32,132 nt of DNA from Planctomycetaceae bacterium. GTDB lineage: Bacteria > Planctomycetota > Planctomycetia > Pirellulales > Pirellulaceae. The stretch is from positions 1 through 32,132 of the forward strand of contig JAHEJI010000040.1 in NCBI GenBank assembly GCA_024638965.1. Direction: 5' to 3'. Shown piece by piece: positions 8,596-26,564 of the stretch. The notes beneath the pieces were generated by a model. That model searched no databases. It had not been told where the DNA came from and saw only the letters and a list, made by a program, of their open reading frames with translations. The position numbers were made by a program, and so were the translations under genes. Every line of letters starts with the position of its first letter. The first letter of the stretch is position 1.

Positions 8596-8608
8596 CTAAG
8601 GAAACAAG

Positions 8609-10045
8609 ATGCATTCGCAACTGGTTGTTATAGGTGGTGGTCCGGGTGGCTATGCAGCCGCATTTCTGGCCGCTGACGAAGGCATGGATGTCGTGCTAAT
8701 CGAGGCGGAAGGGCGGTTGGGCGGTTCGTGTTTGCTGCGCGGTTGTATTCCCTCCAAGGCGTTATTGCATGTGGCCCGAGTCATTACGGAGGTTGAAGAA
8801 CTGAATCACGATTGGGGTGTGACGTTCGGTTCGCCCAACATCGCGATTGATCAATTGCGAGCTCGCAAAGAAAAGGTGATCGACACGCTTTCGGGCGGAC
8901 TCGGCTCATTGGCTAAGAGCCGCAAAGTGACCGTCATCAATGCCTGGGCAAAATTTGCGGATAACAAAACGATCTCACTTGAAGGCGACGATCCGTCGAT
9001 CCCGGATGGAAAACAAATCACGTTCGACCATTGCATTGTCGCAACAGGAAGTGTGCCGGCGATGCCGGGAGCCTTCGATGTAGGCTCCGATCGAGTGATG
9101 GATTCAACGGGGGCGCTCAACCTTGTCGATATCCCCGAGACCATGCTTGTCGTGGGTGGCGGTTACATCGGACTTGAAATGGGGACGGTCTACGCAAATC
9201 TTGGAACCAAAGTCAGTGTGGTCGAGCTTTTAGATGGATTGTTGATGGGTGCCGATCGCGATCTGGTACGTCCATTGGCCCGTAGGCTGAAAACCTTGTT
9301 TGAAGACCGGATTTTCCTCAACACGAAAGTCGGAGGTCTTGCTCTGCGTGGTGACAAAGTGGAAGTCACTTACGAAGGGCCTGGCAAATTTGGCACAGAA
9401 CAATATGACCGCGTGTTGATTTCCGTTGGGCGCAGCCCGAGTACTCACAATATCGGCCTTGAAAACACAGCAATTCAAACCGATCAACGTGGTTTTCTGG
9501 TTCACGATGAGCACCTCCGAACTGCCGAACCCAATATCTTCGTGATTGGCGATGCGGCCGGCGAACCGATGTTGGCTCATAAGGCCAACCACGAAGGTCG
9601 GCATGCGGTGGAAGTGATTCTGGGACATGCGACTGTATTCGATAAACGAGCGATTCCGGCCGTCGTGTTTACCGATCCGGAAATCGCATGGGCTGGATTG
9701 ACGGTCGAAGAAGCAAAACGTGACGGCATAAATCACACAGTTTGCAGTTATCCATGGGCGGCAAGTGGTCGAGCACAAGCGCTCGGACGCACAGAAGGAT
9801 TAACCAAATGGATTGTTGATCCGGAATCCGAACGCCTGCTGGGTTGCGGCATCGTTGGAGCCGGTGCGGGCGAATTGATTGCGGAAGCGACTCTTGCCAT
9901 CGAAATGGGCTGCGTTGTGCGAGACATCGCTGAGACGGTTCATGCACACCCGACGCTTGGCGAAACAATGATGAATTCGGCAGAAGTCTTCTTTGGAACT
10001 GCAACCGAAATCTATAAACCCAAAAAGAAACCCGCGCACGCTTGA
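8609..10045 (+). CDS. lpdA: Dihydrolipoyl dehydrogenase (E3)
   Basis: This flavoprotein reoxidises dihydrolipoamide in the pyruvate, 2-oxoglutarate or glycine-cleavage complexes, using NAD. The product has 478 residues, a normal length. The N-terminal FAD loop GGGPGGY is at 9-15 and the redox-active disulfide is C41-x4-C46 within GGSCLLRGCIPSK. The NAD-binding loop VVGGGYIGLEMG lies near 180, and the second FAD contact IFVIGDAAG near 310. The C-terminal catalytic dyad is in HAHPTLGET. The conventional CxxVGC between the cysteines is replaced by CLLRGC, a tolerated variant. The ATG at 8609 has AAGGA about 6 bases upstream. No E1 or E2 gene is nearby. Confidence 0.94.
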   Translation: MHSQLVVIGGGPGGYAAAFLAADEGMDVVLIEAEGRLGGSCLLRGCIPSKALLHVARVITEVEELNHDWGVTFGSPNIAIDQLRARKEKVIDTLSGGLGSLAKSRKVTVINAWAKFADNKTISLEGDDPSIPDGKQITFDHCIVATGSVPAMPGAFDVGSDRVMDSTGALNLVDIPETMLVVGGGYIGLEMGTVYANLGTKVSVVELLDGLLMGADRDLVRPLARRLKTLFEDRIFLNTKVGGLALRGDKVEVTYEGPGKFGTEQYDRVLISVGRSPSTHNIGLENTAIQTDQRGFLVHDEHLRTAEPNIFVIGDAAGEPMLAHKANHEGRHAVEVILGHATVFDKRAIPAVVFTDPEIAWAGLTVEEAKRDGINHTVCSYPWAASGRAQALGRTEGLTKWIVDPESERLLGCGIVGAGAGELIAEATLAIEMGCVVRDIAETVHAHPTLGETMMNSAEVFFGTATEIYKPKKKPAHA

Positions 10046-10071
10046 AAGACCCATCAAGATTCGAATCAAAG

Positions 10072-10914
10072 ATGCCAGACGTCAAACGGATCCTCCGTTC
10101 ACCGCGAGAAATCAGAAAAATGAGGGCTGCCGGGTTACTGGTTTGGCAAGCGCACCAAGCGGCGGCTCGAATTCTTGAACCGGGTGTGACGACAGGCGAA
10201 CTAAATGAAGTGTACCGGTCAACGTTTGCAGAATACGATGCAACCCCGTTGTTTCTAAACTACGGAACACCGCCGTTTCCGGCTGAAACTTGTATTTCCG
10301 TAAATGAGGAGATTGTCCACGGGATTCCTGGGAGCCGACGGATCGAAGAAGGCGACATTGTCAGCCTTGATACGGGCTGTCGACTCGATGGATGGTGTGG
10401 TGATGCGGCGGTGACTCATGCTGTCGGGGAAATTGATCACTCCAAAAGAAAATTGCTTGAAGTTACCCAGGGTGTCTTGAGTTTGGCCATTGAGCTGATG
10501 GGCAGTAAAACGATGTGGAGCGAAATCGCGATTGAAATGGAGAAATTCGTCAAGGACGCCGGATTCTCAGTCGTCGAAGACATGGTGGGGCACGGCATTG
10601 GGCAAAATCTCCATGAAGCACCCCAAGTTCCCAACTACTATAGCAAGTCGTTGCTGGAAACCGACGATTTTGATCTCCGCCCGGGTGTCGTTTTGGCGGT
10701 GGAGCCCATGGTGAACATAGGTGTCAAAGATGTCGTTTGCCTCAAGGATGATTGGACTCTGGTTACAAGCGATGGCAAGGCGAGTGCGCATTTCGAACAC
10801 ACGATTGCAATCACAAAAGACGGTCCCAAACGTCTAACCGGCCCCCCAACTGATGAAGAATTATCTAGGATGCCAGCCTGGGTTCATGACAAATCAAATT
10901 GGGTGACCTGGTAA
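10072..10914 (+). CDS. map: Methionine aminopeptidase, type I
   Basis: The enzyme removes the initiator methionine from nascent proteins in the cytoplasm. With the ATG at 10072 the protein has 280 residues. All five metal ligands are visible: D100 (VSLDTG), D111 (CGDAAVTH), H174 (GHGIG), E211 (VEPM) and E242 (HFEHT). The substrate histidine is H83 in IVHGIPG. The C-terminal tail is about 20 residues longer than the E. coli enzyme. The frame also has a TTG at 10042 overlapping the lpdA stop; the ATG is preferred because conserved sequence starts there, although no clear Shine-Dalgarno precedes either. The 26-base gap to lpdA suggests co-transcription. Confidence 0.95.
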   Translation: MPDVKRILRSPREIRKMRAAGLLVWQAHQAAARILEPGVTTGELNEVYRSTFAEYDATPLFLNYGTPPFPAETCISVNEEIVHGIPGSRRIEEGDIVSLDTGCRLDGWCGDAAVTHAVGEIDHSKRKLLEVTQGVLSLAIELMGSKTMWSEIAIEMEKFVKDAGFSVVEDMVGHGIGQNLHEAPQVPNYYSKSLLETDDFDLRPGVVLAVEPMVNIGVKDVVCLKDDWTLVTSDGKASAHFEHTIAITKDGPKRLTGPPTDEELSRMPAWVHDKSNWVTW

Positions 10915-12241
10915 CCAGCCAAAACGAGCGACGCGCTTACGAGCGGACGAAGCAACCGGACGTGCCTCCCCCGCACGGCCGGTAGGTGTTCGGCCTCAGT
11001 CGTCCAGCGGCCCCCTCAGCGCCGGATCGATCGCCTCGTCCGTCAACGCATGCAGGAACGCCTCGAGGTCCGCCAGCTCGTCGTCCGTGAGCCCGAGCGG
11101 CGTCAGCACCTTCTCCGCGTGGAGTCCGGTGAGCACGGAGTTCTCGAGCGTGTTGTAGTGCCGCAGCACGTCCATGAGCGTCGCGACCTGCCCTTGGTGC
11201 ATGTACGGCGCCGAGAGCGCGACGTTGCGCAGCGTCGGCGTCTTGAACGTGCCCCACAATTCCGTGTCGCGCACGAGGGACTGGACCTTGTCGAGCGCCG
11301 CGGCGCGCGCCTCCGGGCCGGCATCGCTGTACCGGCCCCCCGCGGTGAAGTCGGCTTGCTTGACGCGCGCGATGCCCTCGTAACGCCCCGCGTCGGCGGG
11401 CGCGCCGCCGTCGGTGGGCGGAACGCCGTTCGAGTGAAACGAATCGGTCGAGAAGTTCGGCCCCGCGTGGCACTCGCGGCAATTCGCGCGGCCGACGAAC
11501 AGCTTGAGCCCTCGTTGCGCCGATTCGTCAAGCGCCGTGAGCTTCTCGGCGTCGCCCTCGAGGAGTCCCTCGACGAAGACGTCGAACGGCGCGCGGCGCG
11601 AAATGAGCTTGCGCTCGTAGGCCGCAAGCGCCTTGCCCACGTTGACGAACGCGACGTTCACCGCGTGCCGGTCGTCGTTGGTCATGCCCGCCCAGGCGGC
11701 CGCACCGGCGGGATCTTCGTCGTCGGGGCGCCCGGACGGCGGGAAACGCACCTCGTCGTCCAGTTCGGGCAGCGTCCCGAAGATCGCCTCGTACTCCGCG
11801 CGGAGTACGGGGTCGTCGCGTACGACGTGCACGACGGCGAGCCGCGTCGTCGCGTGCTCGGCCGGCTCCTCGAGCGGTTCGAGCGCCTGGCCCCAAAGCG
11901 TGTCAACGCGGCCGTCCCAGAAGAACCAGTCGCTGTACGCAACGTTCCAGAGCGCCATCGAGTGTCGCGTCAAGGGGCCGAGGCCGCGCGCGAGCGTGCC
12001 GCCGTCGCCGAAGCCCTTCGCAAAGGCGTGACACGACGCACACGCGATGGAGCCGTCGGCCGAGAAACGCGGGTCGTAGAAGACGCGCTGGCCGAACCGC
12101 GCGGCCGAGGGATCGTCGGCGTAGCGATTCGTGGGATCGGGTGCGAGCGGCGGCAGCGGCGAGAGCGTGTGGATCGCGGCAAGCTCGTCGTCGGTGTACG
12201 GGATCGCGGTCTCGATGCGCGGCGTCTCGCACCCGCCGACC
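10915..12241. other. High-GC island of foreign composition
   Basis: Base composition jumps abruptly just after map, and drops back at about 12241. By eye it is roughly 70% GC inside against about 50% outside. Inside, codons end almost exclusively in G or C, and long antisense frames (for example 11050-12252) appear simply because stops are rare. The right border lies inside an open reading frame; the left border lies between about 10915 and 10960. No terminal repeats, integrase or transposase is seen. Either a recent acquisition or an assembly chimera would look like this. Confidence 0.85.
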
Positions 12242-12525
12242 ACTGGCAGTAAAAGTGCCACGTAGACCACGATCGCAACACGCCAATCGTAAAAACCGGT
12301 CAACGAGTCAGCGGTTAGCATACCCAGAACAGCGGCGCCAAGTCCAAGTAGTTGGCGATGAAAAAGGAAGCCTGCCAATAAGGCTAGCGCCATGACCGAC
12401 TTGAAATTGGGTACGTCGATGGTCAATCGACTTATCAGGATCAGCAAGACAATTCCGAGTGCCGACGTCAATTCCACCGACACTGGGCGATGCAACTTGC
12501 GATTTGTTTTGGATAGGGTGGTCAT
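10996..12525 (-). CDS. Di-haem cytochrome c peroxidase (MauG/CcpA type) fused to a DUF6580-like membrane N-terminus
   Basis: The 509-residue frame has two unlike parts. Residues 1 to about 96 hold four hydrophobic helices (about 19-36, 44-57, 61-76, 83-96) with PNFKSVMALALLAGF and the tail LTGFYDW, resembling the start of DUF6580 membrane proteins. From C99 onward it is a di-haem peroxidase, which reduces hydrogen peroxide in the periplasm. It has CASCH at 162-166 and CRECH at 349-353 as the two haem attachment sites, TRHSMALWN between them, and FKTPTLRN with APYMHQG near 435. The sequence VVGGC at 95-99 reads as a lipobox, so the donor protein was probably a lipoprotein. The switch coincides with the base-composition border. 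With four helices the haem domain would be expected on the cytoplasmic side, where haem c is not attached, so the fusion may not be functional. Confidence 0.85.
   Translation of the reverse strand: MTTLSKTNRKLHRPVSVELTSALGIVLLILISRLTIDVPNFKSVMALALLAGFLFHRQLLGLGAAVLGMLTADSLTGFYDWRVAIVVYVALLLPVVGGCETPRIETAIPYTDDELAAIHTLSPLPPLAPDPTNRYADDPSAARFGQRVFYDPRFSADGSIACASCHAFAKGFGDGGTLARGLGPLTRHSMALWNVAYSDWFFWDGRVDTLWGQALEPLEEPAEHATTRLAVVHVVRDDPVLRAEYEAIFGTLPELDDEVRFPPSGRPDDEDPAGAAAWAGMTNDDRHAVNVAFVNVGKALAAYERKLISRRAPFDVFVEGLLEGDAEKLTALDESAQRGLKLFVGRANCRECHAGPNFSTDSFHSNGVPPTDGGAPADAGRYEGIARVKQADFTAGGRYSDAGPEARAAALDKVQSLVRDTELWGTFKTPTLRNVALSAPYMHQGQVATLMDVLRHYNTLENSVLTGLHAEKVLTPLGLTDDELADLEAFLHALTDEAIDPALRGPLDD
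12235..12525 (-). pseudogene. N-terminal remnant of a DUF6580-like membrane protein gene
   Basis: Only the first roughly 96 codons remain, in native base composition, before the GC-rich peroxidase sequence takes over in the same frame. From memory, family members are about 170-200 residues with further helices, so about half is missing. The missing C-terminal half is not found on the far side of the island either, where the map gene ends. The ATG at 12525 has only a weak ribosome site. Confidence 0.6.
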
Positions 12526-13245
12526 GAATTTTGTTCCGATGCAGGCTTCAGCGGCAACCTCATATTTACCTGCTCGCCATTCTACCTCATCGCCCGACTT
12601 TAGTTGCTAGACCCCGGCCCCTTGCTGAGCGAGTTTTCCGTTCGCCTAGAAAATCCACCAGTTTTCGAATCGACGATTTCCGGCACAATTCCTGCGTCAT
12701 TAAACGTCAGTCCGAGGTTTTTGAGGCGAGTCGGGCAGATTCACCCCACATCGGCCCGATAAACCGGACGTTTCTTGCTCTAAAGTTTCGCGAAGATGAT
12801 TCTCTGGCGGCCCAACCTGAGAGGTCAACCACGCCTGCTAACAACTTTTTTTCAATCTTAAAAAATTTGAGCGAATCAGATGATTTGTCGTGCGTTTTGG
12901 AAATTCTCGCATCTCAGTGGGTAGTGTTCGTTTTCGTGTGCGGGATAAACCGGAACGGCGGTAGGGACGATTTATTGTTTGGGAAAATCAAAACCTGTGT
13001 CCTGTGACTAAAGAGGCGCTCGGATGAACGCCGATTGTGGCTGGTCGTTTATCAGTTTTATCATGACCGAAGCTTGTCATGTTTCGATTTAAGCTCTTGG
13101 AATAATAGTTATGTCGAGCCGGATTGGTAATCACATCCCCAAGCATATTTGAACAGATGGTTACTATACGGCAATCTTTTCGACAGTTCCATGTATCTAC
13201 GAAACCCGTGCGATCGCATTTTGAAGATTGATGGTCGACAGTATG
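12526..13245. other. 720-base gap without a convincing gene
   Basis: A 158-codon plus-strand frame (12531-13007, TTG start) has no recognisable protein character and no ribosome site. A small inverted repeat CATGAC/GTCATG lies at 13062-13067 and 13076-13081. Nothing else stands out; the promoter of the fused gene should lie near 12530-12600. Confidence 0.5.
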
Positions 13246-14523
13246 TTACTTAAGAAATAACGCGGCTTCGACGCGGGCTTGTTGTGACGCTGTCAAAATC
13301 GTGTTAATTCTTCGTCCTGATTTCGTATACCATTGGCTTTTGGATTGATTCCAAGGTCGATTTTGCGTTTGTACCAAAGTGGTTTCCGGGCCCTGGATGA
13401 TGACTCTTTTTCCACCTGTCGCGGTTCGTTCGTGCGTAATCGTCTTGTTGCCAATTCGCATTGGCTTGTTGAGCGGAACCGCTTTGTGAGTGGATTTTTT
13501 TTCGGCAGCTCGCTTGTTGTCTTGGACGAGAGCGTCGATCAATTTGCCTTTACCCGCGTCGATCGGTGTATCGACCATATACTTCTTAAGGAGCGATGAG
13601 GCCACCGTTCCGCGACCTACCACGGTCTTGGACTTCAAGCCAGTTTTCCAAGCCATCGGGATCCGATGAATAACAGAGGACTTTGCCAACATCCGGCGAG
13701 CTTCGGGAGTTTTCAAGAATCGTTCGATAGCGTCACCTCCCATATCGCCAACCTGATTTCCGGCGATCCCTAGCCCTGCAGAAACAAGTGCCTGAGTTCC
13801 GGTTTTTCCGTCAACCAATGCTTGAGTCGCATCGAAGGTAGCCCCCAGGAACAAAACGACTCCTTTTTGGCCGAGCGTTGCGGTTGGTCCGCCTGCCAAT
13901 CCGATTCCGATGGAGCCCATTACGAAAGACCCTGTGCCTTTAAAGATTGCTGCGCCCACGTTTCCGGTGTCCTGATAAGAGCTGAACCCATCAAGCGTTG
14001 CTCCGGTACCAAGCACCGCCAGCGCCGCTCCCCCGGAAAGAAACACACTTCCCAAGAGCAACGCGTCCACTGAACGGTTGCGGACAAACTCAGCGCCCCA
14101 CAACACGTCTTCGGCAACTCCGATGGCTTTCGAGAGGTTTCTCAGTGATTTGTCTGAGGCGCGGCGAATCCGAGTCTTGACTTGCTTGCGTACACGGGGA
14201 AGCTGGTTTTGGATGTAATTCAACTCTTTGCGAAGCTGTGTTGGGTTGTTTGTCGACAAGGGCTTGAGTCGGTTCTTGATGTAGTGTCGCGTCGTTAGCG
14301 AAGCTTCTTTGGCGACGTAAGACCAAGGCACATCGTAGACAACATAGTCAGATTTTCCCCAAGTCGATGGGCTTGTCCATTCTGACTGGGACAGCGTTTT
14401 CGTTTTTCCATACTTGAGCGCCGCCATCTCATAGAAATAAGCGTAACAGAGATTGAATACGGCTGACCAATCGGTATAGCAGATATCTTCCGAGTTGTTG
14501 TAGGAAGTAAGTTCAACGGTCAT
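13246..14523 (-). CDS. Unrecognised protein with a glycine-rich hydrophobic core, possibly an effector or toxin
   Basis: The 425-residue product is not one I can name. The ATG at 14523 has GGAG 8 bases upstream, a good ribosome site. The N-terminal 80 residues are rich in aromatic residues (YTDWSAVF, YAYFYEMAALKYG, YDVPWSYV). A basic, helical stretch follows at about 81-130. A long glycine- and alanine-rich hydrophobic region spans about 150-260, including SVDALLLGSVFLSGGAALAVLG and FVMGSIGIGLAGGP. The C-terminal 150 residues are basic and soluble. There is no signal peptide. A hydrophobic glycine-rich middle between soluble ends is seen in some contact-dependent or type VI effectors and in polymorphic toxins. 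That comparison is only architectural; no toxin domain or immunity gene is identified. Confidence 0.7.
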   Translation of the reverse strand: MTVELTSYNNSEDICYTDWSAVFNLCYAYFYEMAALKYGKTKTLSQSEWTSPSTWGKSDYVVYDVPWSYVAKEASLTTRHYIKNRLKPLSTNNPTQLRKELNYIQNQLPRVRKQVKTRIRRASDKSLRNLSKAIGVAEDVLWGAEFVRNRSVDALLLGSVFLSGGAALAVLGTGATLDGFSSYQDTGNVGAAIFKGTGSFVMGSIGIGLAGGPTATLGQKGVVLFLGATFDATQALVDGKTGTQALVSAGLGIAGNQVGDMGGDAIERFLKTPEARRMLAKSSVIHRIPMAWKTGLKSKTVVGRGTVASSLLKKYMVDTPIDAGKGKLIDALVQDNKRAAEKKSTHKAVPLNKPMRIGNKTITHERTATGGKRVIIQGPETTLVQTQNRPWNQSKSQWYTKSGRRINTILTASQQARVEAALFLK

Positions 14524-14776
14524 TTGGCGGACTCCATTTTCTTGGTGATTTGTTTCGTTTCTTTCCTATGACGCGAAAGACCCCAAAACGAAACAACTAT
14601 CTGGGGAAATGCACTTCGGCCACAATGAACATCGGTGGTTCCGTGTAAAAAGGAGTCGGGGACAGGCAACCGTTTTTCGTTCACAGAACAGCGAAATTGG
14701 CAAGAATAGGCAAACAGGAGAGTTTGCCGTAACAGGCAAATAAAGCGGACATTCGGGACATTCTTCTCATTCACAT
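14524..14776. other. Intergenic segment that may be repeat-derived
   Basis: This stretch upstream of the 13246-14523 gene contains GGAGTCGGGGACAGGCAAC. I recall near-identical strings from the edges of interspersed elements in unrelated bacterial genomes. A minus-strand 84-codon frame (14520-14774) crosses it and is probably fortuitous. No transposase is present. Confidence 0.35.
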
Positions 14777-14806
14777 ATGTGGTGTTTCAACAAGTCGACG
14801 AGCGTA

Positions 14807-14864
14807 CGTCAGGCTGTGCCTGACGGCTGTTTGAATCCGAACGTGATATTCAGACACAGCCTGA
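14807..14864. repeat. REP-like paired palindrome
   Basis: A perfect hairpin CGTCAGGC-TGT-GCCTGACG lies at 14807-14825. A near copy in inverse orientation, TCAGACACAGCCTGA, lies at 14850-14864; it is the reverse complement of the first core apart from one position. Two inverted palindromes about 40 bases apart is the arrangement of a BIME. It sits exactly at the 5' edge of the pseudogene that follows. Confidence 0.75.
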
Positions 14865-14894
14865 TCTGCAAACCTTGCGTCTACGCTCGAGACC

Positions 14895-15680
14895 AAAATT
14901 TAATGCTACAAATCCCGATTCCGTCGTTTGCGACCGGCGGTGACAGATTTGGCTACCACCTAAAACTTAATGAACCAGGTGATGTTCTGATCGCCTATGA
15001 CGACTCCGCCGGCGATATCAAAGGCTTCATTTTTAATCCGGGAATCGACAACGACCCAACCGATGATGAATTCATCGAACTGCTCGACGCCGATGGAACG
15101 CCCCTGCGAATGGATGGGGAACGAGATCTCTATTTTCATCGCGTGTAGTTGTGGCTGAGCGCCTCCGGTCGTCGTCGGAATCGGTCGTCGTTCGGTTTCC
15201 CGTGGGCGGCACTCCTCTGGATTACGAAGAGTTTCCAGCCTGGCAGGTTGTTGGAATCAATGAGTCTTCCGAAATTGTGGTTCGATTATTGCGAATTCAA
15301 ATTCGTAGAAACAGATACACAACCATCAGTGTTGCAAAAATCGGGGCAAATGGAGAGGTGCTTTGGCAAGCGAATGCTAACGAAGCCCCAAGTGCTGGCG
15401 ACTTGAATAACATGGGAGACGTCGTGGGGTACCTAGATGGTACCACAGGTTCGCCTTATCTCATGCAAGAGGGTGATCCGAACACGGCAGGGGACGAGTT
15501 GTTTCTGGATATTCGGGATCTGATCATTGAGGACTCTGATCCAGATCGAATCTTTCGCGACTCCCCTGTTGTTGCCAACGATCTGGTGTCGGATCGTGAT
15601 TCGACCGATCACTTGTTCATAACAAGATTCTGTTGTTCAAGGATAAGCCACCGTCAAGTTTCAGTTTGTCAATAATCCGG
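14895..15680 (+). pseudogene. Degenerate secreted repeat protein (HAF-like), frameshifted and 5'-truncated
   Basis: The coding character runs in one frame to the stop at 15146-15148 (FATGGDRFGYHLKLNEPGD, then GFIFNPGIDNDPTDDEF). It then continues in a second frame from about 15110-15150 to 15670 (GDLNNMGDVVGYLDG, then SPYLMQEGDPNTAGDELF). The two frames carry copies of the same repeat, a hydrophobic strand followed by Gly/Asp-rich DPxxDDE, as in HAF-type extracellular repeat proteins of planctomycetes. Beyond about 15620 further frame changes seem likely (LLFKDKPPS in the third frame, FVNNPVPHKPSGA in the first frame used). No start codon or signal peptide is left; the sequence begins next to the palindromic repeat. 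Confidence 0.7.
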
Positions 15681-15880
15681 TGCCCCACAAGCCCAGCGGC
15701 GCAATTACGCGCTGCTACGATGTTTCGAATCGGTTGTATGAATTCTTGCTACATCCATTGTGTAAACGGGAGGTCTCTACCTTCAGTTGGTTCAGGTCGT
15801 CGTTCTCCGACCGGGATACGTCTGATAACGAGCCGGATCACCAATTGAGCGCCCAACAGAAAGAAAGAGCGTGGCCGATA

Positions 15881-16849
15881 TCACCACTTCTCAAAAAAGC
15901 TGCGGTCGTCCCGAGTGTTCTTGTCAAAGTGGTAGTAAAGGTGATTCTTTGTCTTGAAGAGCTTCAAAACGTGATTGCGAAATTCTTTTTTTAACTTTTC
16001 TTCGTTACCGCGGCCGCCTCCGCTTTCTTGTTGTCGACCGAAGGGGCGAGTCATGTAGTTGAGTGAAGTCTTAATGTCGTTATCCAAATCAATTAAGGTT
16101 TCCTCGACTTTGTGTTTTTCCATTGTCCGGTTTCTGTATAGATCGATGAGCGATCGAATCGGGAACGTTCTGAAATCGAGCCCCATATAATGCCCGTCAC
16201 CGGTGAATTCGCCTTTAAGCGGATAACCTGCACCTGCTTTCTTCATTTCCTTGCGAACTTTTTCGTTCGCGATGCCCCACTCGCCGACAAAGTACTTGTT
16301 GTAGTGCCAAAGGAATGACATGTTGGGACGTCCAACTTTTTCTGCCAGATCAAGATAAGCGCGAATTCGTTTTCCTTGGTCTCCAGGAATACCGGCGGCG
16401 AAATCCTGAGCCTTGTCGATGATGTCTTTTATTATTTTGTCAAGATCAGAGACAACCTCGTGGCCGTCACCATCAATTATGACTTCGTCGAGTTGAATCC
16501 ACATCGCCCATCGTCGCTCTGGTACTCGGTCGTTTCTACGGACGATTTTGACGCCGAGTTTAATGGGTTCGCCCGTTCGACGGCCCATTTTTATACTGCT
16601 GTGGTAGATCTCAAGAAAACTTGCCGACGCAAGGACTTTGCCTGACGCCGAGATACCCTGGTTGCTTCGGTATTTCAAGCGATGGCCAAGGCGTCGCGCT
16701 ATAGCAGCCCCAAATTTTTTGACGTCTACCGAGAACGTCAATTCCATGATTCCCAAATCTTCGTAGTAGTAAGTGTCGGAGCGTTTGAACGAAGCAATTG
16801 TTTGTCGGTTCGCTCTTTTTATTGCATTGACGGTTGTATTGTCGCCCAT
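15881..16849 (-). CDS. Unrecognised soluble protein, 322 residues
   Basis: I do not recognise the family. I start it at the ATG at 16849 because AAGGAAG lies about 5 bases upstream; the frame is open 19 codons further without a better site. The protein is basic, lacks a signal peptide and hydrophobic helices, and looks alpha/beta. Notable stretches are MELTFSVDVKKFG, RRWAMWIQLDEVIIDGDGHE (an acidic loop) and WHYNKYFVGEWG, then a helical, charged C-terminus ending in KNHLYYHFDKN and FFEKW. It lies on the same strand as the unrecognised gene at 13246-14523, with a pseudogene between them. The two may belong to one accessory locus, but no shared motif links them. Confidence 0.7.
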   Translation of the reverse strand: MGDNTTVNAIKRANRQTIASFKRSDTYYYEDLGIMELTFSVDVKKFGAAIARRLGHRLKYRSNQGISASGKVLASASFLEIYHSSIKMGRRTGEPIKLGVKIVRRNDRVPERRWAMWIQLDEVIIDGDGHEVVSDLDKIIKDIIDKAQDFAAGIPGDQGKRIRAYLDLAEKVGRPNMSFLWHYNKYFVGEWGIANEKVRKEMKKAGAGYPLKGEFTGDGHYMGLDFRTFPIRSLIDLYRNRTMEKHKVEETLIDLDNDIKTSLNYMTRPFGRQQESGGGRGNEEKLKKEFRNHVLKLFKTKNHLYYHFDKNTRDDRSFFEKW

Positions 16850-17174
16850 GATTCTTCCTTTTGAATGGAGCAAAGGATCTTGCTTGTAAATCAATGCGAC
16901 AAGCACACTTGAACTCTGCCAACCAATTTCGAGATATTCCAGTTTTTTCCGAGAATCGAAGTAGAAGAATCTCGGCGCTCAAAGAGGGCTGGCGGCTATG
17001 TGTTTTCAGTTGGTGAGACTACCAGATTTGTGGAAGATTTGTTTCGGAGAAACTTTGGTAGGCTGCGGATCAAAAGACGATCTGGCGACAGCGCGGTCAC
17101 ATGTCATTTGCGATAAGATTCGTTGACTCAAGATGGATTCGATGGAACTTTGATGATTTGCGTCTTTGACGTCG

Positions 17175-20100
17175 CTACTCGTCTTCCAATCCGTCGAGCG
17201 TCTGTTGCCATTCGGCAGCTAGATCAGTTTTGGTGGGATCAGAACTGAAGATTTCAACAAGCCGGGTGGCTGCGATTTTTGTTCTTTTCAACAACTCTGG
17301 GTTATCAACAGAGGCGTCTTGATGCAAACCCTCGAAGCCCGAAATTAACAGTTTCTCGGCTTCGCTCAATAACTGCTTTGCCTTCGCCGATTCAGTAACA
17401 GACAACTGATTAGCTTGGTGGTAAATTGCCAAACCCAGAGAAACTTTGGCGTATAAAGACGCTGGATCGCCCGCGTTTCTCTCTTCTGTGAACTTTTTAA
17501 AAAGTTCGTTAGATTCGCGCAGATAATTTACCGCGGATTCGACTTGCGCGTGCTCCAACAAAAATTCACCTGCCACAGCTAATCGCTCAGCAAAAACGAG
17601 TTGATCGGTGTCCGGTGACTTTCGCATTTCATTGATTTGCCGATCAAACCATTTATTGGCGAGTTCAGGTTTCTTTACCTTGAGAAATGATTTGGCAACG
17701 TCGTCTGTGTTTTTGCATACTCGCGCACTGGCAACGCCAAATTTTGATACGAGCTGCGGATATGTCTCGGTGAGCAATTGTTCAGCTTGTCCCGAATCTT
17801 GTGTCTCAAAATAGGCGAACACCAGATTCATTTTTGAAAGGATGGTGTGCTGATGTTCTGGTCCGTAGGTAGTGGAACATCCAGAAACCAATTCCTCCAA
17901 CCACGTTCGAGACTGCTCATATTGCCCGGTTTTCTTATATCCTTTGACAAGATTTGAAATTGCCGTGAGTGTGTAAGCGTGTTGAGGGCCAAGTTCTGTC
18001 TTCATTTTTTCGGCCACTGCTTTCAAGAGCGTGATTCCTTTTTCGAGTTGGTCGTTTTGGATATACGTCTCCCCCAAATAGTTTTGAGCGCCCAAAGTAT
18101 GTCGATTTTCTGTCCCCAGGGCGTTCGCCATCCGCACAGAAACTTCCTCCAGAATCGAAATCGCTTTTTCAACTTTGCCGTCCGCGCGATAAATGATTCC
18201 AAGTGATCGCATCGCGATCAGGGTGTCGGGAGTTTCTTCGCCATAGCGGGATTTTCGGCGATCGTAGACGAACTCAGCGAGCGAAATGGCTTTGTCATAG
18301 TTGCCCAATTGTTGATAAACGGCCCCAAGGTTGGAGGCTAACAAAAGCGTGTCCGCGTGATCTTCGCCCAACGTTCTTTTTTGAATTTCGAGCGCCTCGG
18401 CGATTAATTTCGCAGCTTCCTCAACTTCGCCCATCTTGAATTGGACTCCGGCTAAATTGTTAATCGCCAGCAACGTTTCGGGATGATCTTCCCCTTTGTT
18501 TTTGCGAATAGCTTTAATGGCTGCGGTGTAGAGTTCGGCGGATTTGTCGTGCAGGCCTTCAATAGCGTAAACATAGGCCAAATTGCTCATGCAAACGGCC
18601 GTCGCGTTGTTGTCGATACCGAGGACGGCTGTGCATCGTGCCAAAGTCTCTTCCAGCAACGTTTTGGCTTCCGGCAGATTGCCTGTTTCATGAAGTGCCC
18701 AACCGAGGTTCATTTTGGCATCCAACACGACAGGATCGTCAGGCCCCAATTCGGTTTCAAGGCCAGCCGCTGCCGGCTGCAACATGACCAATCCATCGGC
18801 TGGATGACCGGCCGTGCGCAGTACATCTCCGAGTTCTTGCTGAACTCGATATGTTTCCAAATGCTTTTCGCCATGTTCCTGGACCAAGCCCTCATATGCC
18901 TGCTCCAACGCCAATGCGGCATCATCGTAGTGCCCGAGACCCCTCAATGCCCGCCCCAACATGTACTGCTGCTCAGCAACTAGCAAACGATCGGCCTCAG
19001 CATTGCTTCCAAGTTTGGAAAGCAAATCGGTTAACCGATCGCCAAGCGTTACACGAAGGGGTTTTTTGTTCGTTCCTTCTGTCTGAGGGTCAAGTTCATC
19101 AAAGATAGACGTCAGAATTTCGTGAGTTTCCTCCAGGTGCGCCAGACGTTGATTGGATTGTTCTTTCGCCGCCCGTTCCGATTCGGCCGAGGCAATTGCG
19201 AGTTTTCGCGCTGTCTCCTTGGCGTCTCGTTCATGAGTCACATCGATCAATCTCCGGTCAGCCAATCCTTGCGCTTGCGTGGCGCGGTAGGCTTGCCAGA
19301 TCGCGAGCGACAATCCGATCAAGAGCATCAGCAGCATAAGCGTTGCCGAAACAAGGGCGGCCCGATGCCGGGCGGCCAATTTCTTCAAACGGTAACTGGC
19401 GGTCGGCGGACCCGCGATGACGGGTTGGTCGTTCAGATATCGCTCAATTTCATCGCTTAGGGCGCCCGCACTGTCGTACCTTCGCGAGCGATCCTTCTCC
19501 AGGCATTTTGTCGTGATCCAGTCCAGATCGCCGCGGATCAATCGCTGTAGTCGCAAGGGATCTGATTGGCGTTGTTGAGCGATAACCGATACACACTCGA
19601 CCGATTCCGTTAATCGAGAGCTTGGCTTGGTCAGTTCTTCGTCGCGAATGAGTTTTCGAATTTGTTCAAAGGTCGCATTTTTCATACGATTGCGATCAAG
19701 CGGCGTCGTTCCGGTCAGTAATTCATACAATAGGATTCCCAGCGAATAAATATCGCTGCGCGTGTCAATGTCCAAATTGCTGGTGTCCGACTGTTCGGGA
19801 CTCATGTACAGAGGCGTCCCGACGACCTGCGAAATATGAGTGTAAACCGATTGTTCGGACAATTGCTGGTGCAAGGCTTTGGCCACCCCAAAGTCAATGA
19901 CTTTCACTAGCGGTCGATCATCATGAGAGGCAACCAAGACATTGGCTGGCTTAATATCACGGTGAATGATCCCCTTTTGATGAGCGTGCTCGAGCGCTTT
20001 GCAAACCTTCATGAAGAGCTTAAGACGACGTTCAATCGAAAGTCGGTTGACGTTGCAGTATTCGGTGATGGGAATGCTATGCACAAGTTCCATCGCAAAA

Positions 20101-20603
20101 TAAGGTTGGCCCGCGTCCGTTGTTCCGGCATCAAAGACTTTCGCAATATTCGGATGTTCCATCAACGCGAGCGCCTGGCGTTCGGCGGAAAACCGGGCAA
20201 TGATTTGTTCGGAATCCATCCCCGGTTTGATGATCTTTAGCGCGAGTTTACGGCGAACAGGTTTGAACTGTTCAGCGACGAAGACAAGGCCGAATCCACC
20301 TTCACCGATCTGTTCACGCAGAATGTAGGGACCGATTTGATCACCCGCAATTGCAGCCGCGGACGAGAATAATCGAGTTTCGCGCTCAGGATTGACCAAC
20401 GGAGTTTCGACCGCCGATTGCGGACCGATTGCCGGAATTTGCATGAAGCTTCCCAGCTGGAAATGGGCTTGAATCAATTCTTCGACCTCCGCCCGAAGCC
20501 GAGTGTTGTTTCCACACGCGTCGTTCAAAAATTGAGTGCGTCGTTTCTCGTCGATTGCCAGAGCATCGTTGAAAATATTCTCGGCTGGATTTCGATTGGT
20601 CAT
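17175..20603 (-). CDS. Membrane-anchored Ser/Thr protein kinase with C-terminal TPR repeats
   Basis: The 1142-residue protein is a Hanks-type kinase. It begins with a helical domain (about 1-90) typical of planctomycete kinases. The kinase domain shows IGEGGFG at 99-105, the ATP lysine K123, HRDIKPAN from 214 with catalytic D216, DFG at 237-239 and GTPLYMSPE at 262-270. One transmembrane helix lies at about 415-437, after a basic LKKLAARHR. A coiled-coil-like linker (about 440-490) leads into many TPR repeats at roughly 540-1000, several in the 42-residue kinesin-light-chain style (YEQAxxLxEExL...LGxxHPxTL). The ATG at 20603 has no strong ribosome site. A cognate ECF sigma gene lies upstream on the same strand, 314 bases away. 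In planctomycetes such pairing is common, and the kinase is thought to control the sigma factor in place of an anti-sigma factor. Confidence 0.95.
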   Translation of the reverse strand: MTNRNPAENIFNDALAIDEKRRTQFLNDACGNNTRLRAEVEELIQAHFQLGSFMQIPAIGPQSAVETPLVNPERETRLFSSAAAIAGDQIGPYILREQIGEGGFGLVFVAEQFKPVRRKLALKIIKPGMDSEQIIARFSAERQALALMEHPNIAKVFDAGTTDAGQPYFAMELVHSIPITEYCNVNRLSIERRLKLFMKVCKALEHAHQKGIIHRDIKPANVLVASHDDRPLVKVIDFGVAKALHQQLSEQSVYTHISQVVGTPLYMSPEQSDTSNLDIDTRSDIYSLGILLYELLTGTTPLDRNRMKNATFEQIRKLIRDEELTKPSSRLTESVECVSVIAQQRQSDPLRLQRLIRGDLDWITTKCLEKDRSRRYDSAGALSDEIERYLNDQPVIAGPPTASYRLKKLAARHRAALVSATLMLLMLLIGLSLAIWQAYRATQAQGLADRRLIDVTHERDAKETARKLAIASAESERAAKEQSNQRLAHLEETHEILTSIFDELDPQTEGTNKKPLRVTLGDRLTDLLSKLGSNAEADRLLVAEQQYMLGRALRGLGHYDDAALALEQAYEGLVQEHGEKHLETYRVQQELGDVLRTAGHPADGLVMLQPAAAGLETELGPDDPVVLDAKMNLGWALHETGNLPEAKTLLEETLARCTAVLGIDNNATAVCMSNLAYVYAIEGLHDKSAELYTAAIKAIRKNKGEDHPETLLAINNLAGVQFKMGEVEEAAKLIAEALEIQKRTLGEDHADTLLLASNLGAVYQQLGNYDKAISLAEFVYDRRKSRYGEETPDTLIAMRSLGIIYRADGKVEKAISILEEVSVRMANALGTENRHTLGAQNYLGETYIQNDQLEKGITLLKAVAEKMKTELGPQHAYTLTAISNLVKGYKKTGQYEQSRTWLEELVSGCSTTYGPEHQHTILSKMNLVFAYFETQDSGQAEQLLTETYPQLVSKFGVASARVCKNTDDVAKSFLKVKKPELANKWFDRQINEMRKSPDTDQLVFAERLAVAGEFLLEHAQVESAVNYLRESNELFKKFTEERNAGDPASLYAKVSLGLAIYHQANQLSVTESAKAKQLLSEAEKLLISGFEGLHQDASVDNPELLKRTKIAATRLVEIFSSDPTKTDLAAEWQQTLDGLEDE

Positions 20604-20750
20604 TGGAACGCTCTGCGATGGACAGGGCCTGGAAATACCGGGTTATCGATGGCAAATGTCATTCTGAAGAGCTTCTGTCTCGCAAAAAAACATAAATCCG
20701 TCAGTCACCTAGTGGTCAAAGATAACTAATATTGTGGGCGTTGTGTTTTT

Positions 20751-20821
20751 GTAGGCCGTACCGAGCGCAGCGAGATACGGCAAACCCAAAGCCGTAACTC
20801 GTTACACTCGGTACGGCCTAC
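20751..20821. repeat. REP-like long palindrome between sigma factor and kinase
   Basis: Perfect 15-bp arms GTAGGCCGTACCGAG (20751-20765) and CTCGGTACGGCCTAC (20807-20821) enclose a second stem, CGAGATACGGC (20771-20781) with GCCGTAACTCG (20791-20801), with one mismatch. The whole 71 bases can fold as one long interrupted hairpin. The rest of the 314-base gap (20604-20917) shows nothing else. The element separates the kinase from its presumed partner. Confidence 0.85.
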
Positions 20822-20917
20822 CTGATGACATGCGACAATCGCGCCAATTCACTGCCAAAATCAGTTTCTTTATGCGCAGGTTGCATTTGTGGACCGATTT
20901 GTCGGCGGAAATCGGAT

Positions 20918-21499
20918 CTATTTAGTTTTGCCTTCTTCGCCTAAGGCTTGAAACAGCCATGTTCGAGCAAAATTCCATTTCCGATAAACCGATCTTTCGG
21001 GCATTCCCATGACCCTAGCGGCTTCGGCGATCGTCATTCCAACAAAAAAATGCAACTTTACAATTTTCGCTGCGTCGTCATCAATTTTTTGTAGCTCGTC
21101 CAAAGATTGGTCAATCGCCAAAAGTTGCTCGACAGGAACCCGAATTTCGAACGGCACGTCCGGAAGTTCAACACGTGTATGTTGCCCACCATGTTTGGTT
21201 CTGCTTTTTCGGCGAGCATGATCGACCAGAATTCGCCGCATCGATTCGGCGGCTGCGGCAAAAAAGTGACCTTGTCCATCCCAGTTTTGTTGGTCGACCG
21301 CCGATGGGTCATTTCCGACCAGTCGCATGTAGGCTTCATGCACCAACGCGGTCGCGGTGAGGGTGTGCCCGGCCCGTTCACTGGCCATTTTGTGTGCGGC
21401 GAGCCTTCGCAATTGGTCGTAGACCAAGGGTAACAATTCCTCAGCCGCCTTCGGGTCGCCGTTCGCGGCCGCGTTGAGCAGTGTAGTCGTCTTATTCAT
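20918..21499 (-). CDS. ECF-type RNA polymerase sigma factor, kinase-linked group
   Basis: The 193-residue protein directs RNA polymerase to a special set of promoters. The sigma2 region spans about 20-90 and includes YDQLRRLAAHKMASER and TALVHEAYMRL, the form found in the planctomycete and acidobacterial kinase-associated ECF group. A conserved SMRRILVDHARRKS follows at about 85-100. The sigma4 helix-turn-helix is at about 150-185, with GMTIAEAARVMGMPERSVYRKW. No anti-sigma gene is adjacent. The next gene downstream is a Ser/Thr kinase, the usual partner for this group. The start at 21499 gives the complete sigma2 region. Confidence 0.95.
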   Translation of the reverse strand: MNKTTTLLNAAANGDPKAAEELLPLVYDQLRRLAAHKMASERAGHTLTATALVHEAYMRLVGNDPSAVDQQNWDGQGHFFAAAAESMRRILVDHARRKSRTKHGGQHTRVELPDVPFEIRVPVEQLLAIDQSLDELQKIDDDAAKIVKLHFFVGMTIAEAARVMGMPERSVYRKWNFARTWLFQALGEEGKTK

Positions 21500-22126
21500 G
21501 TCCAGATTCTAACACACCGTCGACTGAGCAAAATTATTGGTTTTGTTATAACACTGTTGGGCCTAGCGCAAACGAGCAGGAAATTCCTGCTTAATTTTAA
21601 CGGCCAAAACGCGGCGAATCGTTTAAACAAACGGCTCTCGGCTACTTGGCCCACAATAAACAACCCGAGAATCCCATGAAAAGTCTAGAGTGTTGGTAAG
21701 CTATCTCATTTTTCCGGCCAGCGATTGGCGATTGCATCTCAATATCATCGAAACCTACCCTGCCCCCCCAGGATTGCCAAGCTGGCAAGGGTCCTGCAAT
21801 CGGAAGGGACAATAACAGGTGCGCCTAAACGGGCTTCAAGTGTTCGTTCGTTCCGTCACTTTAATTGCAGTCCGATCGAACTCATTTGTCAAAAATAATC
21901 GGGATAACAGACGAATGGCAAGAATCTGTTCTCGCTAGAAAAAGTCAAACTGAAATCCCCCGCAAACACCAAACGGTGAGACCAAAATACCTTTGTGCAG
22001 GCACGATCGCGTTCGGAGGGATCGACAAATGCGTTAACAAATACAGGTGTTTTCGCTCTGGTAGATCCTGTGCGCATTGTCGCAACCTGCACTTAACGTG
22101 GCTAAAATCATAGAATCAAGGCCACA
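21500..22126. other. 627-base gap between the two sigma/kinase modules
   Basis: Two hairpins are visible. AGCAGGA-AAT-TCCTGCT at 21575-21591 is followed by TAATTTTAA and could be a weak terminator. TTGCC-AAGCT-GGCAA flanked by CAGGA/TCCTG spans 21769-21796. A plus-strand 82-codon frame (21865-22113) has no ribosome site and no recognisable sequence. The sigma gene's promoter must lie in the first part. Confidence 0.45.
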
Positions 22127-24946
22127 TCAGGCTGGCGCTGATCGCTCCAGGTCGGGACGAAAAGATCGCTGGGGGTTACGGCACGCCAAATGGGCAGCGA
22201 CAACCGCTAGGCAAAAGACTGACGCGTATCCTAACTCACCGATATCAACATAAGGTGCCGCCAGGTTGAAACCTGTCGGCCACGAAACAATTTGCCACAC
22301 AACCCATCCTGTCACCACCGTCAATACACCGAATCGAAACAGGAGCACAAAACCCAGCAGGACCCAAGTCATCACTACGATGGCGGCCGAGAAATCGCCA
22401 GTTGCAAACGATGGAAACGAGAAAAAAAGGGCGACCAAAAACGCAGCCAACCAACGATTTCGCAAGATCAGGTTCAGCAGAAACACAAAAACCAGACAAG
22501 CGAAAAAACCACCAACCAACCCAACAAACAACTCGCGACTCACCTGACCAATGGCGAAAGGAATTCCTGCTAGTGGTTCCAGCGGAAACGGTCCTTCGCC
22601 CAGTCTTACTATCGGATCGGCTGTCAACGCGAATTGACGAGGAAATCCAAAAATGATGCCCAGCGATCCGACAAGTTGCGCCGCCAGCCCGCCTACGATG
22701 CCTATCAAAATATCCCCGGCCACTTGGCGATCAAAAAATCCATTCGATAACAAGCGATTCCATCCCACCAACACTAGAGGCCAAGACTTGCGAACATAGG
22801 GTTCAACTCCCACGTAGGCAGCACAGATCAGCGTACCGCGGAGCATAGCTCGGGCCAAGGTTTCCAGAATCATCACCGCTTCGCCCGGTCCCGCGACATG
22901 ATGCGCCTGAAAAAGCCAGTAGATCAGCGAGGTTGCCATTACAAAAAGAAACAATCGCATCGTCCCTTTTCGATCGGCTGCACCTGACTTCCAGTTGCGG
23001 TGCGCCAAAAACAAGGCAGTACCGAACAGAGTCAGCACCGTGACGGCTAGAATGATGGGACGTATTCCAGGTGAAGAACTTCCCTTCTCAGGCCGCTTTT
23101 GAATCATCCGAAAATAAACGGGTATTCCGTGAAGCGCGGCCGCCTCCACAATCGTGGATGTCGATTTCGATTGCCAGACTTCCCATGTATCGGCGAAAAT
23201 AGGAGGCGAACGATTTGCTTCGCTCACACGATCGCGGGCAAACAAGTTTTCGAACTGTATGCGGTCCAAGCCGGCCGCTGACAACAACACTCGGCGCCAT
23301 TGATCGGCATCGTCCACCGTCCGAACCACGTCCGCTGGCGTAGGAACTGCTTGCCATTCCAACAGCTTGCCATCACTGTCCAGAATCAGCAGACACATAC
23401 CGGGCTCACTTAGGGGCGGATCATCGGGCGTGACAAGCATCGAGGAATAAGGACCGCGTCCCTGTTTGGGAACCAAATCGGTTGTCGATTGCCGATACCA
23501 AAAGGTGGTTGGTCGAGGCGACCGCCCGGTAAGTTGTCGCCATTCACCACTAGCATTCTCATTCGTTCGGAAATAACGAAAAAATTGGGTGTGCCACTTC
23601 AACCCCCACGCAACATCAGCGCGATCAGGCTGAAATCCCAATACTCCGGTAATCCGCTCGGCATCGCTGACACGAATCAGCTCGTGCAGTTCGATGTCCA
23701 TCATCGATTGAATTCTATGTGAAAGAAAACCCAAGACACCTAAGGCAAGCAGGATACCGGTCGACGTAAGTGTCGCCACTCCAATCGATATCCGCCGCTG
23801 ATCCCCAGCAGTGGCCACCAATTCGGGTGGCGGCATTTCACCAGCCGCTAATACCGCACTCAATGAGTTTTTTCCGGGTAACGCGTTGGCGACGGAGTCG
23901 GCCGATGGCGGCCTGAGACTTGGATCGGTTTCCAGGCACGCGAGCACCACGACGTCGACTGAAGAATCCAGGTCTTCGGCAATCCGCGATGGTGGCGCTG
24001 GGGATGTGGTCGGTCCGGACGCCTTCATCTCCTCAATTCCGGAGCCTGGCTTGAATGGCTGGCCGGTGAACAGTTCATAGAGTACCAACCCCAACGAGTA
24101 GATGTCACTCTGGACACTGGTCTTACCGCGGGAAAGCTGCTCGGGCGCCATATAGGCCGGCGTGCCATCGAATTCCTGCAAAGTTTGACTGGCCAACTGG
24201 GCCAAACCGAAGTCGGTAATTCGCACTTGGCCACGACCATCAATCATGACGTTGGCAGGCTTCAAGTCTCGGTGGAGTATTCCCTGGCAATGCGCTGCGG
24301 CCAACCCGCGACAAATCTGCTGCGCGAACTCGATTCCCTTCGCACGTGGCAGGCGGCCAATACGTTTCAGCAGAATCTTTAGGTTTTCGCCGTCGATATA
24401 CTCCATCGACAAAAAATGGATGCCATCCGCTTCGCCAATGTCATAAACCCGGCAGACATTGGGATGAGAGATTTGTCGGGAGAGTCGAACTTCATTAAAC
24501 AAATACTGCAATCGCTGGGAGTCGTGTGACATGGATCGAGCCAGAAACTTAAGTGCCACCGGATGACCAAGTTTCATGTCATCAGCTCGATAGACCTCCC
24601 CCATGCCTCCGACGCCCAATAGGGAGACGATTCGGTAACGGCCGGCGATTCGGGTACCTGGTAGGTAGTAGGATTGAGCCAATGATTCGGACCCCCAGCG
24701 CCCTTCGGAAGGCGTTAGTTGCTGAACCCAGTGCCGCGTCATTTCCAGCTGCTGTTCTGCAAACGAATCGTCTCGATTCCCATCAGCCATTAAAAGGAAT
24801 CCAACTTGACGACGTAAATCAACATCCCCGGCGCAAGCTTCGGACAGCCGCTGCTCGCGTTGGACCGCATCCAGGTCGCAAACCTCATGGAATAGCGCGC
24901 GGATTTGTTGATAACGATCTTTATTCAACGGACGCCTCACCGCCAA
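22127..24946 (-). CDS. Ser/Thr protein kinase with a multi-pass membrane C-terminus
   Basis: The product is up to 939 residues. After a short helical N-terminus (DRYQQIRALFHEVCDLD) comes the kinase domain: LGVGGMGEVYR at 110-120, K133, HRDLKPAN from 225 with D227, DFG at 245-247 and GTPAYMAPEQ at 261-270. A transmembrane helix lies at about 386-408. A region of about 230 residues follows that should be extracytoplasmic, then roughly seven or eight hydrophobic segments to the C-terminus, including PIILAVTVLTLFGTALFL. This suggests a membrane-embedded sensor. The start is ambiguous: TTG at 24946, GTG at 24940 and TTG at 24928 are possible; the last is nearest to where family members begin. The first two overlap the upstream sigma gene, so translation is probably coupled. 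Confidence 0.92.
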   Translation of the reverse strand: MAVRRPLNKDRYQQIRALFHEVCDLDAVQREQRLSEACAGDVDLRRQVGFLLMADGNRDDSFAEQQLEMTRHWVQQLTPSEGRWGSESLAQSYYLPGTRIAGRYRIVSLLGVGGMGEVYRADDMKLGHPVALKFLARSMSHDSQRLQYLFNEVRLSRQISHPNVCRVYDIGEADGIHFLSMEYIDGENLKILLKRIGRLPRAKGIEFAQQICRGLAAAHCQGILHRDLKPANVMIDGRGQVRITDFGLAQLASQTLQEFDGTPAYMAPEQLSRGKTSVQSDIYSLGLVLYELFTGQPFKPGSGIEEMKASGPTTSPAPPSRIAEDLDSSVDVVVLACLETDPSLRPPSADSVANALPGKNSLSAVLAAGEMPPPELVATAGDQRRISIGVATLTSTGILLALGVLGFLSHRIQSMMDIELHELIRVSDAERITGVLGFQPDRADVAWGLKWHTQFFRYFRTNENASGEWRQLTGRSPRPTTFWYRQSTTDLVPKQGRGPYSSMLVTPDDPPLSEPGMCLLILDSDGKLLEWQAVPTPADVVRTVDDADQWRRVLLSAAGLDRIQFENLFARDRVSEANRSPPIFADTWEVWQSKSTSTIVEAAALHGIPVYFRMIQKRPEKGSSSPGIRPIILAVTVLTLFGTALFLAHRNWKSGAADRKGTMRLFLFVMATSLIYWLFQAHHVAGPGEAVMILETLARAMLRGTLICAAYVGVEPYVRKSWPLVLVGWNRLLSNGFFDRQVAGDILIGIVGGLAAQLVGSLGIIFGFPRQFALTADPIVRLGEGPFPLEPLAGIPFAIGQVSRELFVGLVGGFFACLVFVFLLNLILRNRWLAAFLVALFFSFPSFATGDFSAAIVVMTWVLLGFVLLFRFGVLTVVTGWVVWQIVSWPTGFNLAAPYVDIGELGYASVFCLAVVAAHLACRNPQRSFRPDLERSAPA

Positions 24947-25499
24947 GATGACATCGAAGCCAGGCGCGAGCCATTCGCCAGTCTAATGCGACAGTTCGAG
25001 CAGAAATTCCCAGTGCGGTCGCTGTCTCGTGAATTGTCATGCCGGCTAAGAAACGCATCTCCACGATTTTTGCCTGACGCGGTTCGAGTTCGGCCAGACT
25101 CGACAACGCCTCCGAAAGGCTGATTAAATCAATCGCTACCGAATTTGAACCGTGCATGATCTGGCCCAAATCGGTCCGTTTCCAAGCACCACCCCGTTTG
25201 GCGGCATGGCGTCGACGCGCATGATCCACCAGAATCTGCCGCATGGCGCGAGCCGCCAGATTCAGAAAATGCGCACGGTCGATTTCGGAAATGCAAGACT
25301 GGTCCACTAGCCGCAAAAAAGCTTCGTGCACAAGCGCCGTGGGCTGCAAGCTGTTGTCGGCCGGATCACGCATGACTCGCCACGCCAACGCCCGCAACTC
25401 GTCATAAACGGCAACGAACAACTGGTCGGCTGCTTTTTCAACGCCTCGGGAACATTCAGTCAGCAAGTGTGTCGTATCGGAACGGGATAATTCTGGCAT
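24921..25499 (-). CDS. ECF-type RNA polymerase sigma factor, partner of the downstream kinase
   Basis: I start this 192-residue protein at the ATG at 25499. The frame continues to 25841, but that extra stretch is cysteine- and arginine-rich with no sigma homology. The sigma2 region includes YDELRALAWRVMRD and TALVHEAFLRLVDQ, followed by AMRQILVDHARRRHAAKRGG. The sigma4 helix-turn-helix is GMTIHETATALGISARTVALDW, ending near the C-terminus. It is clearly a relative of the 20918-21499 sigma factor, with the same DHARR signature. Its stop at 24921 lies inside or at the start of the kinase gene, a four-to-26-base overlap or short gap depending on the kinase start. That is tighter than in the first module. 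Confidence 0.94.
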   Translation of the reverse strand: MPELSRSDTTHLLTECSRGVEKAADQLFVAVYDELRALAWRVMRDPADNSLQPTALVHEAFLRLVDQSCISEIDRAHFLNLAARAMRQILVDHARRRHAAKRGGAWKRTDLGQIMHGSNSVAIDLISLSEALSSLAELEPRQAKIVEMRFLAGMTIHETATALGISARTVALDWRMARAWLRCHLGGEASVE

Positions 25500-25870
25500 C
25501 TTGCTTAACCAAGAGTACGACAATTTGATTTCATTGTAACACGTTGTTTGGCTCCTGAGTAAATGATGCGAAACTCGACAATTGGCGCCTCGGTGCATCG
25601 GCCACGAACCCCCCCGGTACATCGTCCACACAACCCCGATCGACGCCCTTAAATCGGACGGAATTGCATCCCTGTGGCTACATTTCAAACAGAGCCTCAA
25701 AAAAAGGTGAATTTTTTTGCGCGGTTGGAAGGTGCATTGCGTAATCAGTGCAGAAAACGCTCGCAAACCGTGGCGACGGAGTGCGGAGCACAAGGCTAAA
25801 TGATCCGGTCCGCCGCCCTGTCCGAGAAAATGTTCAGTCACACTTCAGTATTTGTTAGAGGAGTAAAAAA
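25500..25870. promoter_or_regulatory. Divergent promoter region with a spaced direct repeat
   Basis: This 371-base gap lies between the divergent sigma gene and the small secreted-protein gene. CGGTGCATCGGCCAC (25591-25605) and CGGTACATCGTCCAC (25615-25629) are direct copies with three differences, 24 bases apart start to start. They could be tandem operator half-sites or sigma-dependent promoter elements. No gene is seen here. Confidence 0.35.
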
Positions 25871-26323: not shown

Positions 26324-26426
26324 GGAAACGCGAGCCATGAGCTGATATTGCAAATGGATTTTAGCACCTGCCAGTTCAGGATGCTTTGGCTAAAACCCAA
26401 AATCTCGCAATCCAAAGGTCGCGAAA

Positions 26427-26460: not shown

Positions 26461-26564
26461 GCGTCGGTCCGGCTCCTGCAGTTCTTTCAAAAACCGAAAT
26501 CAGATCAAGAGCATTGGCATCTGCAGGTCTTCAAGCCGGAGGCTAAGCAGCCGCCGGATCATGT

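Follow-up and report, generated by a model that had tools for sequence, protein, structure and literature searches.

Whether the fusion frame at this locus records a real horizontal acquisition or an assembly error is the question considered here. The locus lies in a window of 32,132 bases from a Planctomycetaceae bacterium, which is the whole of contig C126 with its end at 32132. A single frame of 509 codons (10996-12525, minus strand) consists of the N-terminal half of a DUF6580 membrane protein followed by an apparently complete di-haem enzyme of the cytochrome c peroxidase (CCP)/MauG type. A preliminary description of the sequence had reported this frame, its DUF6580-like N-terminus and a sharp composition change at about 12241, all of which are borne out by the frame list, the GC windows, Pfam and the codon log-odds, whose peak puts the first foreign codon at codon 95 (12243-12241), with codons 96-100 close behind. 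That description counted the feature from 10915, which takes in the frame together with about 80 untranslated bases. The coordinates are collected in Table 1.

Table 1. Features of the fusion locus and its surroundings (window coordinates).
Feature	Position	Strand	Basis
map, intact; island begins at most about 45 bases past its stop	10042..10914	+	Pfam and relatives
GC-rich foreign island	10925..12247		GC profile, likelihood borders, sampled stretches
GC-rich non-coding tail, 3' of the peroxidase stop, within the island	10925..10995		Frame list, borders
Di-haem cytochrome c peroxidase/MauG-like coding part, aa 96-509	10996..12240	-	Pfam CCP_MauG, homologue alignment, GC3 0.90
Second haem-binding motif CRECH, aa 349-353	11467..11481	-	Homologue alignment
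First haem-binding motif CASCH, aa 162-166	12028..12042	-	Homologue alignment
VGGC resembling a lipobox, aa 96-99, created by the join	12229..12240	-	Relatives' alignment, codon usage
N-terminal half (aa 1-95) of a native DUF6580 membrane protein that lacks its C-terminal half	12241..12525	-	Pfam PF20221, relatives
Candidate internal starts, ATG codon 69 and TTG codon 75	12301..12321	-	Codon listing; use as starts putative
Native right arm: two ECF sigma factors, two protein kinases, LRR protein	12526..32132		Frame annotation, contig overlap

The enzyme part lies on a sharply bounded GC-rich island. GC content in 500-base windows is 0.70-0.71 in the island and 0.44-0.58 in the rest of the window, with a step from about 0.51 to 0.70 at entry; by maximum likelihood the borders fall at 10925 (range 10900-10958) and 12247 (range 12234-12284). 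The left border must fall past 10914, because of the 25 other genomes having map 24 match it right up to its end, the exception being the closest relative, G024. In 62 sampled stretches, which total 948,059 bases of the 5.7-Mb assembly and include the window and one stretch all N, GC averages 0.502 (sd 0.039) over 500-base windows. The island is the richest of the six sampled stretches above 0.62, the other five being less rich, so chance is excluded as the cause of its GC excess. The foreign origin put forward in the preliminary description is thus supported by a 70% GC island in a genome of about 50% GC. A duplicate of the genome's own sequence was considered and rejected: no other match to the island DNA in the assembly is better than E 0.035, and the related di-haem enzymes there are only 29-30% identical. 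Another sharp interior GC-rich island, of about 750 bases, was seen on C127 of the same assembly (3050-3800); it reaches 0.64 GC per 500 bases, and the open frame of 244 residues that covers it matches nothing in Pfam.

The enzyme matches CCP_MauG (PF03150) at residues 141-320 (E 2e-38) with 132.8 bits against a gathering threshold of 25.6, and like the MbnH-like side of that family it combines a strong profile match with two CxxCH motifs. The MbnH model TIGR04039 is its top-scoring NCBIfam model, but the score of 163.8 lies below the curated cut-off of 362.85, as does that for MauG (TIGR03791; 146.8 against 443.85). Sequence comparison with proteins of solved structure gives cytochrome c peroxidases, a di-haem enzyme and MauG as its relatives, and we class it as a CCP/MauG-type enzyme with no finer subtype. 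It retains 68 of the 70 columns invariant among 12 homologues (the 11 best fetched loci of a phylum scan and one Chloroflexi locus), and the mature enzyme appears to be complete. The CCP_MauG homologues examined carry other leaders, whereas here the N-terminus is the DUF6580 half.

The phylum scan covered 392 genomes, sampled evenly out of a larger group, and 65 of them, this genome included, gave a match at E 1e-40 or better. The 64 others are all labelled as the same phylum, i.e. outside this class, and none exceeds 56% identity. The 11 best homologues are 51-56% identical to the enzyme, with loci of 0.66-0.73 GC and matches of 0.64-0.74 GC, and a GC-rich organism of the same phylum is the probable donor. 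The phylum scan and the contig, plasmid, viral and phage searches brought up no close donor, the best identity being 56%. Beyond the phylum, the searches comprised a short-pattern contig scan, which detects close relatives only and gave one locus (Chloroflexi AL-N1, 40%), together with plasmid, viral-contig and phage records. Plasmid and phage origins were both rejected: 245 plasmid records matched at the protein level, with at most 41.8% identity among the matches listed, and the plasmid search at the DNA level gave five matches with coverage of at most 29%; the viral-contig pattern scan returned no relative and the phage records four, at about 27% identity. Within 24 genomes of the genus, no match to the peroxidase is better than E 1.9e-18 (36% identity).

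The DUF6580 half gives a PF20221 match at residues 20-99 (E 3.6e-9) that is above the score cut-off yet covers only positions 8-81 of the 162 in the profile. It shares the PNFK..A..AGF and YDW..VVY segments with the family and resembles the LPV-type members of the order. It deviates at four (S43, M45, L50 and A72) of the 17 positions that are more than 80% conserved in 34 aligned relatives; comparable variants are found in relatives, so these deviations do not point clearly to decay. PF20221 occurs at two places in the assembly, the half in the window and a full-length copy on C171, which matches the profile from 6 to 156 and has a counterpart in G024. An orphan C-terminal half was not found in a PF20221 search (E up to 1) of the whole assembly, which is 88.57% complete. 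The earlier claims of an in-frame weld and of the loss of the C-terminal half are supported. An intact DUF6580 gene after map in a relative, which the preliminary description proposed to look for, did not turn up: map is missing from the fetched flanks (up to 1.5 kb) of all 25 other DUF6580 loci, which stem from 24 genus genomes and this genome's second copy; two of these loci are shortened by contig ends. No paper in the literature library searched mentions DUF6580.

The join can be placed to within a few codons. Among codons 105-509 none of the 42 leucines is encoded by TTA and none of the 28 prolines by CCA, whereas codon 92 is TTA and codon 94 is CCA, which leaves a zone of about 12 bases compatible with both sides. 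As possible shared sequence at the right border this is little for the usual assembly overlap, and a 21-base word common to both sides, as needed for a k-mer chimera, is unlikely, as judged with the donor sequence not in hand. The native protein extends to about LPV, because DUF6580 relatives of the order align through LPV; the window has VYVALLLPV where close relatives have VYAALALPV and VYGMLALPV. The join accordingly falls within reach of the lipobox-like VGGC, which is built from both sides, the hydrophobic helix before the cysteine being native and the cysteine itself most likely foreign. The preliminary description had the enzyme begin at what looked like its own lipobox cysteine; what follows the helix is indeed foreign or possibly so, but the helix before the cysteine came with the native protein.

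The last native hydrophobic segment is found in 19-residue windows starting at residues 75-86. A hydrophobic core and VGGC are thus present, and they resemble a signal peptide only from an internal start: initiation at codon 69 or 75 would leave one helix ahead of VGGC, in the manner of a lipoprotein signal. A protein begun at codon 1 would have several hydrophobic segments ahead of the enzyme, which might then be left on the wrong face of the membrane. Between 10800 and 12800 there is no match to a sigma-70-type promoter, the one promoter type covered by the scan, and there are five terminator-like sites (1.7 on average in shuffles), none of them at the left border of the island.

No hallmark of a mobile element was seen around the island, as the preliminary description had said of mobility genes and terminal repeats. 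The border regions share no word longer than six bases (6.8 on average in shuffles), and none of the repeats found flanks the island. A scan of 11 right-arm frames of the window and four pre-TPR frames of C143, the adjoining contig, gave no recombinase or transposase family above its cut-off; there is no tRNA in the window or in the stretch of C143 that was read.

The two native arms were then compared with the neighbourhood in relatives. The product of map matches Peptidase_M24 (Pfam, E 7.8e-42) and has 63-98% identical matches in 25 of the 27 other genomes of the genus; the right-arm genes are absent after map in the relatives examined. The end of the window (32002-32132) overlaps C143 1-131 end to end with 124 of 131 bases identical (seven mismatches), and the overlap sequence matches nowhere else in the assembly; strain variation or contig-end error must be assumed for the imperfect fit. 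C143 carries genes for a TPR protein, fumarase C (fumC), pyridoxamine-phosphate oxidase (pdxH) and a PMT-type glycosyltransferase, and four frames in that order stand directly 3' of map in eight of 16 relatives (the genomes with longer post-map DNA among the 25 others having map, G024 left out). Of the remaining eight, one has a fumC frame about 3 kb off and seven have other genes after map, some of these stretches being short. Compared with the genome G005, fumC of C143 is 80% identical and TPR only about 35%. The order here is map, island, DUF6580 half, 20 kb, C143 and TPR-fumC, with about 28 kb from map to TPR (10915-32132 plus C143 132-7023). The two arms are very probably true neighbours, because the contigs overlap at their ends and the map-TPR-fumC block is conserved, and a joining of unrelated contigs is therefore unlikely. 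Such a misjoin of the map arm to a wrong partner was first suggested by G024, which has no near-identical right-arm match, and by the want of any relative, among those examined, with the right arm after map; it was rejected in view of TPR-fumC on the contig overlapping the window's end. A wrongly filled gap between true neighbours is possible.

The closest relative has a join of its own close to this place. In G024, contig C197 follows window 5599-10778 at 96.5% identity, but its final 273 bases (C197 5183-5455) are unrelated DNA. It leaves map in frame about 150 bases upstream of the island; past residue 245, 36 residues (ending GFIWRYR) stand in place of the last 45 of map. The residues lost include HFEHT, presumably part of the metal site, and because its map is damaged this join is probably an artefact, a chimeric contig end. 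The G024 search, which left out window 1-5598, gave no near-identical match to 10779-32132, a weak silence in a genome only 71% complete. The fumC contig of G024 (C364) stops 43 bases beyond its match beside TPR, in a dispersed repeat. In both genomes, then, this place either varies or resists assembly, and the island deserves less trust on that account. The repeat lies at C364 5221-5280; stretches of about 25-55 bases with 83-96% identity to it occur in 12 sampled stretches of the present genome.

On balance we favour a real and fairly recent horizontal acquisition over an assembly error. We propose that a 70% GC piece carrying the di-haem CCP/MauG-type enzyme and about 70 downstream bases entered beside map, its gene having been cut at or inside the signal peptide, and that it displaced the C-terminal half of the DUF6580 gene resident there, within the roughly 28 kb between map and TPR-fumC. 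The recombination would have been illegitimate and have needed hardly any homology, the right border leaving room for about 12 shared bases at the most. With the frame open, the last native DUF6580 helix would run straight into the lipobox (LPVVGGC), and the foreign enzyme could borrow this helix as its signal for export and lipid anchoring. It might do so in the full fusion, though initiation inside the frame, at codon 69 or 75, would be the simplest route. The adjoining arms, the spared map, the apparently complete enzyme, the kept frame and the little sequence that could be shared at the right border speak for a real event; the draft state of the bin, the suspicious G024 join about 150 bases off and a junction seen in one genome only speak against it, as do the want of a close donor, the mismatches in the C143 overlap, the low TPR identity to G005 and the missing sigma-70-type promoter match. 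The fall of the right border at the lipobox is striking, yet we judge it post hoc. A tentative and rather doubtful addition is that a gene arose here in one step, a transmembrane helix from the broken resident gene being recruited to export the newly gained di-haem enzyme and to anchor it by lipid; the same caution extends to its having happened over an abrupt change of composition, with neither homology nor a mobile element in evidence. Horizontal-transfer fusions that capture export signals offer a parallel, likewise with a foreign mature domain behind a resident N-terminus.

Less probable than acquisition, though to be taken seriously, is an assembly artefact in which the gap between the true neighbours was filled or bridged by a 1.3-kb piece from a co-occurring high-GC organism, the in-frame fusion being a one-in-three accident. 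The preliminary description called a frame kept by chance remarkable, which is overstated with a chance of about one third and an unrelated in-frame join in map of G024. The assembly resembles a fragmented metagenome bin (292 contigs, 5.7 Mb, 5.14% contamination), joins such as that of G024 evidently occur here, and the junction, sought in related genomes as had been suggested, is absent from every other genome searched. In the same assembly the GC content of C250 jumps in the final 1.1 kb (to 0.56-0.71 per 100 bases), which is also consistent with an artefact. Yet the artefact needs two wrong joins that each hit the correct neighbour, has small room for a common k-mer at the right border, and would have left map unharmed and the enzyme apparently complete; an orphan DUF6580 half, expectable from a broken path, was not seen, in an assembly of limited completeness. 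The chimera that had been named as the sober alternative thus keeps its place but is weakened, since the native arms adjoin by the C143 end overlap and the TPR-fumC block. The C250 end (17290-18450) encodes a beta-propeller (SBBP) protein and is itself a foreign or chimeric contig end.

A third reading, that the insertion is real but dead, we regard as improbable; DUF6580 would have been destroyed and the enzyme, without signal peptide or promoter of its own, would be an unexported, haem-less passenger. Its share lies within that of a real acquisition, and what acquisition and artefact leave over goes to mixed cases. Fusion through the last of several hydrophobic segments, which presumably alternate in topology, could leave the enzyme cytoplasmic, and the promoter scan of the region is in keeping with silence; against this stand the fully open frame, the near-complete set of invariant residues with both CxxCH motifs, and the lipobox-like join.

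Export-signal capture is often assumed in the spread of periplasmic enzymes and is hard to catch fresh. If real, the fusion would be a young, un-ameliorated case in which an unrelated membrane protein supplied the signal. As an artefact it would serve as a warning, being a chimera that passes the checks of open frame, intact neighbour and conserved synteny, and it stands beside a second suspicious join in the assembly of the nearest relative. New here is the end overlap of C126 and C143, which links the island contig to TPR-fumC-pdxH.
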